Positions 49,749-53,424 of a stretch of DNA of 64,000 bases are shown here, piece after piece. The notes under the pieces were generated by a model, which ran no database searches, was not told the origin of the DNA, and saw nothing but the letters and a program-made list of their open reading frames with translations. A program made the position numbers and the translations under genes. How positions within the stretch are numbered: position 1 is the stretch's first letter; every line of letters begins with the position of its first letter. Source of the DNA: an uncultured Verrucomicrobiota bacterium (lineage in GTDB: Bacteria > Verrucomicrobiota > Verrucomicrobiia > Opitutales > Intestinicryptomonadaceae); the NCBI GenBank assembly GCA_949283955.1, contig CASDUP010000031.1:1-64000 (forward strand). The letters are read 5' to 3'.

Positions 49749-50263
49749 CGTTTTCAATTGTTGACGCAATCAAAATACGCCCATATCGAAAGGCAACGCT
49801 ATTTATGCGCCCCACAAAATAATTGAAACTTGGCAAAGCGCATTTTCCCATGACCGGAAAAACGCCAGAACTTCAATAAAAATTTCAAACCTTCATTCGC
49901 CGCGCGCGCAAAAACTCTCACCCCAAAAAAAGAAAAAATCCTCCGTTTTTCCCATGCGCAAAAATATCCATACATTCTTTAATTCCCGCCCGCCCCCATA
50001 AGCAACTTATGGGTCGATTCCCAATTTCTTTTTATTTGTGTGGAGCTGCCGCAAAGGCTGCCTACTCGTTTTCAATATTTCGCAACACAGCAACTTATTC
50101 CAAGCTCCGACAAAGAATGCCTCTTCCAAATACCCAATGCGTGCTGGAAATAATCGAACCAAAAAAAAGAAAAAAAATTCCGGATTTCAGCCGTTTTAGA
50201 TGGCTTCACTCTCCTCTATTAGTCTTGAAAAAAAGCAACGTTTATGCGACCTTTGAACGAAGA

Positions 50264-51697
50264 ATGTCCATGGAACTGTCCAGTAATTTAAGCCAAAGGC
50301 AGAGTTTCGCTCTCTCTCCGGAAATGAGGAGAAGTTTCGAAATAATGCAGGCTCCGTCTTGGCAGCTATCGGAAATAATATCGAAGGAATTGTCGGAAAA
50401 TCCGGCACTTGAATTTCCGGGTGCAAACGAACCGGTATCCATTCAGGATTTTTCCTCCAGGAAGGAGAAAAAAAAGGAGTCCGAGGATTCGGAAGACGCG
50501 GACAAGCGAGAAATCTTCAGGTCGGAAAAAAGCGACGAAGTTCCGGACAACTACAATATACCGGAGATTCAAAAGCGAAGAGACTTTTTCTTCAACTCAA
50601 TAGCCTTCAACGAATCCACTTCCGAAAAGCTTTTGAAAGAAGCCAAGCTCAATTCCCCTAACGATGAGACGTTTAAGGCGTTCGAGTTTTTTGTAGGGGA
50701 GCTCGACGACAGGGGATTTCTTCCCAAAGATTCGCTCGAAAGGGCCGAAAGAGCTGGATTTTCCAAGGAATCGGCTGAGGCAGCCCTGTCTCTCATAAAG
50801 AATTCCGAACCTTTTGGGATAGGGGCGTTCGACATGAGAGAATCTTTGATGACCCAACTTAAAAAACGGGGCTTGAAGGATTCCGTATGCTATAAAATTT
50901 TGGATTCCTACTTCGATTTGTTGATGGGAAGAAAGATAGGCGAACTGTCCAGCATATTCAAAATGAGCGAAGAGGAGCTCATGGGCGAACTTGATATACT
51001 AAAGGATCTGAGCACATCTCCGGCCCGCGAACTTCGAGACGATTCCCCCGAGTTCGTCTCCGCCGATATAGCATTTCTGAAAAAGCCCGACGGTTCCTTT
51101 GAAGCGGAGCTTACCAACGAGCATATCCCGAAACTGAAGATAAATCCGGAATACAGAAGCATGGTTTCCACGGGAAAGTCGGGGGACCACCAGCTGAATT
51201 CTGGCGAGCTATCCGCCGTACGGGAAAAAATCCGCGAGGCAAAATCTCTCATAGGAATGATAGAGGACAGGCAAAATACCCTGTTGAAAATAGGGAAATC
51301 CATACTCTCTCGCCAGGAAGATTTCATGATAAACGGCCGCGAGGCTCTCAGGCCTATGACAATGCAGGACGTCGCCGGCGACATCGGTGTACACGCCACC
51401 ACGGTTGGGAGGGCCGTGAACGAGAAATACGCTGATACTCCCCACGGAATTATGCCTCTGAGAGATTTCTTTTCAGGGAGCTATTCATCGACTGGAGAAG
51501 GGGAGGACGTGGCAAGCAGCTCGGTTAAGGAGCGCATAAGGGAAATAATATCTGCCGAACCGAAACGAAAGCCATACTCCGACGCCAAAATAGCCGAAAT
51601 ATTGAACGAAGAAAATATAAGCATAAAAAGAAGAACCGTGGCGAAATATCGGGAAGCTCTCGGAATTCCGCCGAAAAGCGGAAGGAGAATTTTCTAA
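50264..51697 (+). CDS. rpoN: RNA polymerase sigma-54 factor
   Basis: A 477-residue sigma-54. I use the ATG at 50264 (MSMELSSNLSQRQSFALSPEMRRS); the open frame upstream to 50009 has no family match. Region I (Gln/Leu-rich, activator-interacting) covers about residues 1-45, the acidic region II lies near 50-100, and the core-binding domain follows. The DNA-binding helix-turn-helix reads TMQDVAGDIGVHATTVGRAVN, and the RpoN box is intact near residues 455-470 (KRRTVAKYREALG). Genes needing it require AAA+ activators, none of which lies here. tsaB begins at the next base after the stop. Confidence 0.95.
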   Translation: MSMELSSNLSQRQSFALSPEMRRSFEIMQAPSWQLSEIISKELSENPALEFPGANEPVSIQDFSSRKEKKKESEDSEDADKREIFRSEKSDEVPDNYNIPEIQKRRDFFFNSIAFNESTSEKLLKEAKLNSPNDETFKAFEFFVGELDDRGFLPKDSLERAERAGFSKESAEAALSLIKNSEPFGIGAFDMRESLMTQLKKRGLKDSVCYKILDSYFDLLMGRKIGELSSIFKMSEEELMGELDILKDLSTSPARELRDDSPEFVSADIAFLKKPDGSFEAELTNEHIPKLKINPEYRSMVSTGKSGDHQLNSGELSAVREKIREAKSLIGMIEDRQNTLLKIGKSILSRQEDFMINGREALRPMTMQDVAGDIGVHATTVGRAVNEKYADTPHGIMPLRDFFSGSYSSTGEGEDVASSSVKERIREIISAEPKRKPYSDAKIAEILNEENISIKRRTVAKYREALGIPPKSGRRIF

Positions 51698-52330
51698 ATG
51701 AAGGGACTTACTTTCGTAATCGACGCGAGCGGCTCCGTGCTGAAATGCGCGGCAATGCGGGACGGAATTTTTATCGGAGGCGTGGAATCCGAAGGGGGCG
51801 CGGCGGAAAATTTCCCGTTTGCAATAAGAAAGCTTCTTAAAATTTCCTCGGCAAGCGGGACGGACGATATAGACAACTTCGCCGTATGCGAAGGGCCCGG
51901 TTCCATGCTCGGAACGCGAGTTGCAAGCGCCGCGGTAAGCTCGCTAGTATCCGCCTCGAAAAAACGCGCCAAAATATTTTCCTACGACTCCCTGGTTTGC
52001 GCGGCAAGAGTGTTGATCTCAAGAGGCGAGAAAAATTTTTGCGTGGTAGCCCCATCGAGAAAGGGATTTGCCAATCTAATAGAAGTATCAGGCGGAGAAA
52101 TAAAGTCCGAGAGGGAAGTGGTGGAAAACTTTGCGTTTCCACAAAACTCGTTCCTTTTAAGGCAGCGTCCGTCGGAAGCGCTAAGCGGGCTGAAAGACGC
52201 GAATATTCAAATGTACGAAGAATGCGTGGCAGCCTTGGAAATTTCCAGCGAAGTAAAATCGGGAACGATAGAAGCAAAGACGCTCACAAAAAGGGAGTAC
52301 GTAAAATGGAAGGCTCAAGCACGCATTTAA
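51698..52330 (+). CDS. tsaB: TsaB-like tRNA threonylcarbamoyladenosine biosynthesis protein
   Basis: A 210-residue ASKHA-fold protein. The start TFVIDASGSVLKCA and the EGPGSMLGTRVA loop correspond to the GPGSFTGLRIG element of TsaB, and the ending with YVKW matches the family's C-terminal region. TsaB pairs with TsaD and TsaE to make t6A37. It is more divergent than the E. coli protein. It begins directly after rpoN's stop and overlaps the next gene by 25 nt, so the three form an operon. tsaD and tsaE are not here. Confidence 0.82.
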   Translation: MKGLTFVIDASGSVLKCAAMRDGIFIGGVESEGGAAENFPFAIRKLLKISSASGTDDIDNFAVCEGPGSMLGTRVASAAVSSLVSASKKRAKIFSYDSLVCAARVLISRGEKNFCVVAPSRKGFANLIEVSGGEIKSEREVVENFAFPQNSFLLRQRPSEALSGLKDANIQMYEECVAALEISSEVKSGTIEAKTLTKREYVKWKAQARI

Positions 52331-53424
52331 GATGCTCCGTCCAGATAGACCTGTGCGCCTTGGAGCGCAATCTCGGAAAGTTGAGGCATTTCATTGGGGT
52401 CGATAAAAAGTGTTTCGCGCTCGTGTCGGCCGACGCCTTCGGCTACGGGGTCAACGCCGCCGTAGCGCGCCTGATGCTCGGGGGAGCGGACGCTTTTGCC
52501 GTGACAAACCTCGCCGAGGGAATAAGGGTCCGCGAGGAGGGAGAAGGCTGGCCCGTAATAGTTATGAATCCAACCCTTCCCGGAGAAGAGGAATATTATT
52601 TCGAAAACTCACTCGTGCCTACCATAGCGAGTTCCGAAGAGGCGGACAGGTTCGAAAAAGTCGCAAACAAGACGGGGAAAAAAATAAGGGTTCACGTAAG
52701 GGCTCCCGTCGACGGAGACGCCCTGCCTTCCCCCGAAGAAGGAGTGGAAATAGCAAGAAAAATATTATCGAGCAAACTCCTTGAATTGGGCGGAATATGC
52801 GTTCCCGGAACGGGAACGGGAGCACCCGTAGAGGGCGGTGTATGCGATAAAACTTTTGCCGAGTTCGCCGAAAAAAATCTCTCCGGAGTACCGGTCCACC
52901 ATTCGGACATCTGCGATCTCGACTCCCTTCCGAAATGCGGAGAAAAAATATTGAGGGCGGGTTTGGTTCTGTTCGGAATGCGCCCATTGGAAAGTTCCAT
53001 TTTGAGCGGCTTCAAACCCGAAAGAGTAATGAAATTTAGAGCTTCGGTAAGCCTCATAAAAATGCTTCCCAAAGGCGCTTCGGTGGGATATTGCAGAAGA
53101 TTCGTGTTGTCGAGGGACTCGAAGGTGGCCCTGATTTCCGTTGGATACGGAGACGGGCTGGCGCGGGACGCCGGAAATAAAACAGAGGTTATAGTTAGGG
53201 GAAGGCGAGCGAAAGTGATCGGAGTGGTTTCGATGGACCAGGCCGCGATTGACGTCACCGATATAGACGGAGTCTCTCTCGGGGACGAAGTTCTAATAAT
53301 AGGATCGGACGGGAAAGACGAAATATCCATAGAGGAGTTCTGCGCCCCTCTCGGAATAACTCCCGCGCAAGCCCTCACCTCCATAACAAAGCGAGTGGCT
53401 AGATTCTACAAGACCTTATACTAA
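52306..53424 (+). CDS. Alanine racemase-fold protein lacking the catalytic PLP lysine
   Basis: A 372-residue homologue of alanine racemase, from the ATG at 52306 (25-nt overlap with tsaB). The N-terminal barrel segment reads CFALVSADAFGYGV where active enzymes read VxKADAYGHG, so the PLP lysine is Ser41 (codon TCG at 52426). The substrate-side motif KxDTGMxR is also lost (VHVRAPVDGD at 129-138). Retained are the PLP-pyridine Arg217 (LRAGLVLFG), the second base Tyr281 (VGYGDG) and VSMDQ at 308-312. The chain is otherwise intact with no stop. It could be a pseudo-enzyme, a PLP-independent binding protein or a differently acting enzyme. Canonical Alr should exist elsewhere if the organism makes D-alanine this way. 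Confidence 0.86.
   Translation: MEGSSTHLRCSVQIDLCALERNLGKLRHFIGVDKKCFALVSADAFGYGVNAAVARLMLGGADAFAVTNLAEGIRVREEGEGWPVIVMNPTLPGEEEYYFENSLVPTIASSEEADRFEKVANKTGKKIRVHVRAPVDGDALPSPEEGVEIARKILSSKLLELGGICVPGTGTGAPVEGGVCDKTFAEFAEKNLSGVPVHHSDICDLDSLPKCGEKILRAGLVLFGMRPLESSILSGFKPERVMKFRASVSLIKMLPKGASVGYCRRFVLSRDSKVALISVGYGDGLARDAGNKTEVIVRGRRAKVIGVVSMDQAAIDVTDIDGVSLGDEVLIIGSDGKDEISIEEFCAPLGITPAQALTSITKRVARFYKTLY

Follow-up and report, generated by a model that had tools for sequence, protein, structure and literature searches.

The rpoN–tsaB–alr locus

The window, that is, the whole stretch of 64,000 nucleotides analysed here, carries three consecutive genes in the same direction: rpoN, tsaB and an alanine racemase homologue. 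We take Alr-S as our name for this last protein, which has no PLP lysine. Its reading frame is intact (372 aa), as the initial annotation had described it, both Pfam domains (Ala_racemase_N and Ala_racemase_C) are matched, and the TIGR00492 score is 190 bits against an equivalog cut-off of 168. The start, MEGSSTHLRC, is kept within the genus. Reference positions are those of Geobacillus stearothermophilus Alr, checked by aligning the PDB sequence; PDB entry 1xqk (Y265F) fixes the Tyr of the VSYG motif as residue 265. The features of the locus are listed below, with counts for Alr-S orthologues of the family unless stated otherwise; Alr-K is a second homologue encoded outside the window.

50009–51697, + strand: rpoN (start codon uncertain), head of the rpoN–tsaB–alr block; TIGR02395 match of 349 bits, same gene order in relatives
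51698–52330, + strand: tsaB, overlapping the Alr-S start by 25 nt; TIGR03725 match below cut-off, directly upstream of alr across the order
52306–53424, + strand: Alr-S, alanine racemase homologue without the PLP lysine, 372 aa; from the frame, Pfam, TIGR00492 and an AlphaFold2 model
52426–52428, + strand: Ser41 codon (TCG), position of the PLP Lys39; within the family Ser (16/18) or Ala (2/18), in other members of the order always Lys (50/50)
52438–52440, + strand: Phe45, position of the PLP-phosphate Tyr43; Phe in all Alr-S (18/18), whereas canonical enzymes (50/50) and Alr-K (16/16) have Tyr
52699–52719, + strand: former KxDTGMxR loop (Lys129–Arg136); Asp131 to Pro 18/18, Arg136 lost 18/18
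52807–52827, + strand: GTGTGAP, new conserved motif at the old His166 site; His166 lost 18/18
52897–52908, + strand: HHSD, new motif replacing the canonical HxxNS (Asn203–Ser204); Ser204 lost 18/18
52954–52956, + strand: Arg217, the PLP-pyridine Arg219, retained 18/18
53089–53091, + strand: Tyr262 (TAT), the catalytic Tyr265, retained 18/18, whereas all Alr-K copies have lost it along with the surrounding loop
53146–53148, + strand: Tyr281, the entryway Tyr284, retained 18/18
53230–53241, + strand: SMDQ, positions 311–314 (with Met312 and Asp313), retained; Met, Asp and Gln each 18/18, Alr-K having L-D-E at the last three
53365–53367, + strand: Ala354, at the same-subunit entryway residue 354; invariably Ala in Alr-S (18/18), with Trp in all Alr-K (15/15) and in most canonical enzymes (41/50)

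In canonical relatives a Lys-bearing alr lies directly 3' of tsaB, preceded by rpoN where the contig reaches, so the position held by Alr-S is the ancestral one for alr in the order. The neighbouring TsaB scores 40 bits with TIGR03725 (cut-off, 69), as if it had diverged too, and its orthologues within the family are only ∼34–38% identical.

The lysine-less form is fixed in the family

A search of 133 genomes, drawn from the genus, the family and the order, revealed an Alr-S orthologue in 18 readable family genomes: that of the window, 12 more of its genus and five of two further genera, with identities of 52–64%. The initial annotation had read a Ser in place of the PLP lysine and had proposed aligning homologues at this position and computing dN/dS. 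The residue does align with Lys39, and the substitution holds throughout these orthologues, Ser in 16 genomes and Ala in two, while Lys occupies the position in all 50 homologues, each single-copy, taken from the order's other families. The Ser is encoded by four synonymous codons (TCG, TCA, TCC and TCT). Both Ala-bearing proteins belong to the third genus (G015 and G017), in which Alr-K carries Phe at 284 and Ala at 203, so that the two proteins have drifted further there.

Pairwise dN/dS for the closest Alr-S pairs was 0.02 (G014/G016) and 0.12 (G015/G017), and 0.04–0.08 for Alr-K; these values are rough because dS is near saturation. Both genes are under purifying selection. An odd residue seen alone would suit a decaying gene or a sequence error, an explanation that the orthologues refute and to which we give practically no weight: the same state recurs in 18 genomes and in 16 independently published records, and stop codons are absent, dN/dS lies far below 1 and the Ser codons vary synonymously. 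A recent local loss, with Lys alleles surviving in near relatives, is ruled out by the lack of Lys in any readable family member. The observations that the initial annotation had named as speaking against its reading (a Lys-bearing allele at this locus in close relatives, neutral decay or a sequencing error) were looked for and not found.

An alignment-based scan of genome contigs (GTDB 220) matched the family and otherwise only distant canonical enzymes. The GTDB 220 records of Alr-S carriers are Opitutales or Verrucomicrobiota, several of them from rumen, abomasum or caecum, and one is Puniceicoccaceae bacterium Marseille-Q1082.

Alr-S is predicted to keep the alanine racemase fold

An AlphaFold2 model of Alr-S built with 22 sequences had a mean pLDDT of 89.3 and a pTM of 0.86. 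It superimposed on 4y2w with a VIA Z of 36.0 and an rmsd of 2.5 over 354 residues, and Foldseek likewise returned alanine racemases as full-length matches. The N-terminal barrel and the C-terminal beta domain of an alanine racemase are both present in the model. This full-length correspondence indicates that Alr-S has lost active-site residues and not the fold, which is predicted to be intact. With the lysine-less form fixed family-wide, purifying selection and the modelled fold, the suggestion of a selected pseudo-enzyme made by the initial annotation gains support.

Alr-S has lost most of its own side of the active site

Alanine racemase, an antibacterial target, is a two-base PLP enzyme described as a homodimer, in which each active site is made from Lys39 of one chain and Tyr265' of its partner. 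Tyr284' likewise reaches in from the partner chain, while Tyr354 belongs to the site's own subunit (PMC3245724; PMC4089486). In Alr-S, Lys39, Tyr43, Asp131, Arg136, His166, Asn203, Ser204 and the residue at 354 (Trp or Tyr in canonical enzymes) are each lost in 18/18 orthologues, while Tyr265, Tyr284, Met312, Asp313 and Gln314 are each retained in 18/18. The disappearance of the KxDTGMxR loop had been noticed correctly, and the losses go beyond those listed initially, to Tyr43→Phe, Asp131→Pro, Arg136, His166, Asn203, Ser204 and position 354. Arg217, Tyr281 and VSMDQ, reported as remaining, are all there, but the role of the tyrosine needs amending: on the 1xqk numbering Tyr281 is the entryway Tyr284, and the retained catalytic Tyr265 is Tyr262. 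Met310–Asp311–Gln312 of Alr-S correspond to reference positions 312–314.

At the mouth of the Alr-S barrel, GTGTGAP and HHSD replace the His166 and Asn203–Ser204 loops. Among 16 aligned orthologues, G168, G170, G172 and P174 of the former and H198, H199 and D201 of the latter are invariant. This suggests that the pocket may bind some ligand, as a possible new ligand site, or may be held shut.

The initial annotation had also considered an enzyme with a new mechanism, which here would be Alr-S acting alone and without a lysine. An intact fold, the retained Tyr265, Arg219 and SMDQ and the new conserved motifs agree with such an activity. It is made very unlikely by what the protein's own site has lost, almost every residue that binds PLP or substrate: the own-side phosphate and carboxylate ligands examined are all gone except Arg219 and Gly221, and the presence of Ala at the lysine position in two members indicates that the Ser is not an essential nucleophile.

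A second, unlinked homologue, Alr-K

A search for a second alr gene, as the initial annotation had advised, was successful. Alr-K lies outside the window (G000:C48:22-1188, locus L001), is unlinked to Alr-S and scores 220 bits with TIGR00492 (equivalog cut-off, 168). The gene lies next to yraN in divergent orientation and, in relatives, often precedes metF. A short PF01168 protein of the YggS type is also encoded in the genome (G000:C45).

Of the 18 readable family genomes, 16 carry Alr-K, which in three of them is broken into fragments at contig ends. Both genes occur together in 16/16 judgeable family genomes, a joint retention like that of DHSc and DHSp (see below), and neither form was found in any other family of the order. 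The readable G001 and G018 and the masked G010 were not counted for Alr-K. G018 is 79% complete and lacks the neighbouring yraN too, and a 20 kb stretch of G010 read as all N, matching none of the families searched. G001, which might pass for a genome with Alr-S and no Alr-K, was dismissed as a counter-example: its sequence is partly masked (28 kb of N in 400 kb sampled), the whole yraN–alrK–metF locus is missing and there is no strong match to Ddl or MurC–F, so that the absence of Alr-K is uninformative.

The losses of the two proteins are complementary

Alr-K presents the opposite pattern. Lys39, Tyr43, Lys129, Asp131, Arg136, His166, Ser204 and Arg219 are retained in 16/16, so that its same-subunit side is that of a canonical enzyme, whereas the catalytic Tyr265 is retained in 0/16, a loop of ∼15 residues carrying it having been deleted in every copy. 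Met312 is replaced by Leu (15/15) and Gln314 by Glu. Set against a canonical enzyme, Alr-S has Tyr265 and lacks the PLP lysine, Arg136 with its KxDTGMxR loop, His166 and Ser204; each copy is without residues that the other retains, as in a DHSc/DHSp type of pair. The only same-subunit residues common to both proteins are Arg219 and Gly221, and the partner-side residues found in both are Asp313 and Tyr284, the latter in all Alr-S and most Alr-K.

The pattern extends beyond the known catalytic residues. Of 62 columns conserved in at least 90% of canonical enzymes (40 in the N-domain and 22 in the C-domain), Alr-S keeps 16/40 and 19/22, and Alr-K 36/40 and 15/22, respectively. Columns kept by one protein only number 3 versus 23 in the N-domain and 6 versus 2 in the C-domain (Alr-S versus Alr-K; Fisher p = 0.0014, only a guide because columns are not independent). 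The two C-domain columns that go the opposite way adjoin residue 354, a same-subunit site. Within-group divergence points the same way, with N/C ratios of 1.13 for Alr-S, whose N-domain is the more divergent, 0.91 for Alr-K, whose C-domain is, and 1.05 for canonical enzymes.

Seen beside Alr-K, with its complementary losses, the window protein takes on another meaning: our preferred interpretation is that it contributes Tyr265, as one half of an alanine racemase made by two genes. We consider it probable (roughly 0.7), judging from the sequences, that Alr-S and Alr-K form an obligate heterodimeric alanine racemase.

A proposed heterodimeric alanine racemase

In this proposal alr would have been duplicated, or a second copy acquired, in the family ancestor, and the two copies would then have lost opposite halves of the active site. 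Alr-S would have kept the C-terminal half that enters the partner's site (Tyr265', Tyr284', Arg290', Met312' and Asp313'), and Alr-K the barrel half (Lys39 with PLP, Tyr43, Lys129, Arg136, His166, Ser204, Arg219 and Trp354). An Alr-S homodimer, without the PLP lysine, and an Alr-K homodimer, without the second base, would each have no complete site. The heterodimer would have one working two-base site, formed by Lys69 of Alr-K and Tyr262 of Alr-S; Lys69, Arg167, His196 and Arg249 of the former with Tyr262, Tyr281, Met310 and Asp311 of the latter would make up the full canonical set. Its second site, with neither base, would be dead. Complex formation, PLP on Alr-K only and racemase activity are what we infer from this division of residues, and the heterodimer is the simplest account of what each gene keeps. 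We also think it rather probable that the pair became obligate by complementary degeneration, Lys and Tyr residing on two unlinked genes with neither product a racemase by itself, and that the dead pocket of Alr-S, with GTGTGAP and HHSD, may serve as a regulatory ligand site as well.

Changing Tyr265 to Ala in the Geobacillus enzyme lowers racemase activity 4 × 10^5-fold (PMC3962088), and on that basis Alr-K by itself would be expected to racemise alanine very poorly. Some observations run against the heterodimer: the two genes are unlinked, Alr-S retains Arg219, which is needless in a dead site, and Alr-K retains Tyr284 and Asp313. The role of a mere Tyr donor does not account for GTGTGAP and HHSD, and a Tyr from elsewhere in Alr-K could replace Tyr265.

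In another reading, Alr-S is a non-catalytic partner or sensor with a ligand pocket of its own, and Alr-K is the sole racemase, a homodimer that has recruited some other second base or remodelled its entry loop. The new invariant motifs at the barrel mouth and the retained Arg219 of Alr-S fit such a role, as does Alr-K with its full Lys39 side and a score (220 bits) above the alr equivalog cut-off. We hold this to be unlikely, since it explains neither the trans-acting residues (Tyr265, Tyr284, Met312, Asp313 and Gln314) kept in 18/18 Alr-S nor the loss of Tyr265 and Met312 in every genome with Alr-K, and the Y265A enzyme is nearly dead as a racemase (PMC3962088).

The tree places Alr-S and Alr-K each in one clade, on long stems, inside the racemases of the order. 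The data are compatible with a single duplication within the family, which is not rejected (p-AU 0.52), a sister relation of the two genes being neither shown nor rejected.

The need for D-alanine

The proposed heterodimer would be the source of the D-alanine that Ddl and the cell wall require. Of the 18 readable family genomes, 16 have a Ddl; the two exceptions are G001, whose sequence is partly masked, and G005, which is 86% complete. Mur ligases occur in those family genomes that were tested. No D-amino-acid transaminase scored above the cut-off in any family genome. A sub-threshold class IV aminotransferase, considered as a source of D-alanine, was rejected as IlvE (NF006185, 430 bits; TIGR01122, 310 bits); it is the sole class IV aminotransferase match and is common to canonical relatives too. 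Apart from Alr-S and Alr-K, a PF01168 search of the family genomes for another alanine racemase returned only the short single-domain protein of the YggS type, together with a few partial matches that fell below threshold or were confined to single genomes. Alr-S and Alr-K are thus the sole racemase candidates seen, and no other source of D-alanine was detected, a result to be read with incomplete genomes and promiscuous enzymes in mind.

The two proteins might instead have unrelated functions, Alr-K being another PLP enzyme (for instance, a D-amino-acid retro-aldolase), Alr-S something else, and D-alanine coming from another source. A single change, Y265A, gives the Geobacillus enzyme aldolase activity (PMC3962088), and the loop deletion would open the Alr-K pocket. 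We regard this as improbable, given that neither another alanine racemase nor a transaminase above the cut-off was found while Ddl and the Mur ligases remain, and that it leaves the complementary retention of residues unexplained.

Comparison with known systems

In whole fold and domain order the proteins are like canonical Alr (TIGR00492; PDB 1sft and 4y2w; fold type III PLP enzymes), both scoring above the equivalog cut-off, and the canonical copy of relatives stands at the same rpoN–tsaB–alr locus. They differ in that one chain of the canonical homodimer carries both Lys39 and Tyr265, which here reside on different genes. Ornithine decarboxylase and its paralogues, such as antizyme inhibitor, are a fold type III PLP family in which a paralogue has turned regulator, but this is a different family from that of Alr-S and Alr-K. 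Alr and DadX of Gram-negative bacteria are described as separate isozymes, biosynthetic and catabolic (PMC4089486); as there, each genome has two alr homologues, but here each copy is without one catalytic residue.

The deoxyhypusine synthase of trypanosomatids can serve as a model, in which an impaired DHSc and a dead paralogue, DHSp, need to form a hetero-oligomer for activity (PMC3663545). Like that pair, Alr-S and Alr-K would come from a duplicated enzyme gene with one dead and one impaired copy, whereas DHSc/DHSp is an unrelated, eukaryotic enzyme. The losses of Alr-S and Alr-K match the two sides of one shared site, which suggests residue sharing and not allosteric activation. The literature searched, which left out most subscription papers, contained no description of an alanine racemase that is a heterodimer or a pseudoenzyme.

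If true, the proposed pair would be a natural heterodimer in which each gene is minus one catalytic base, a clear case of two duplicates bound together as a single enzyme by reciprocal losses that cannot be reversed. The complementing residues being known to the atom, the evolution of an obligate hetero-oligomer would then be directly testable. The pair also calls for caution in annotation: by score each gene passes for an ordinary alr and NCBIfam would name both 'alanine racemase', so that a genome seeming to have two racemases may have two halves of one. Taken together, these results point to a family of gut-type Verrucomicrobiota in which alanine racemase seems to be split into two damaged copies.
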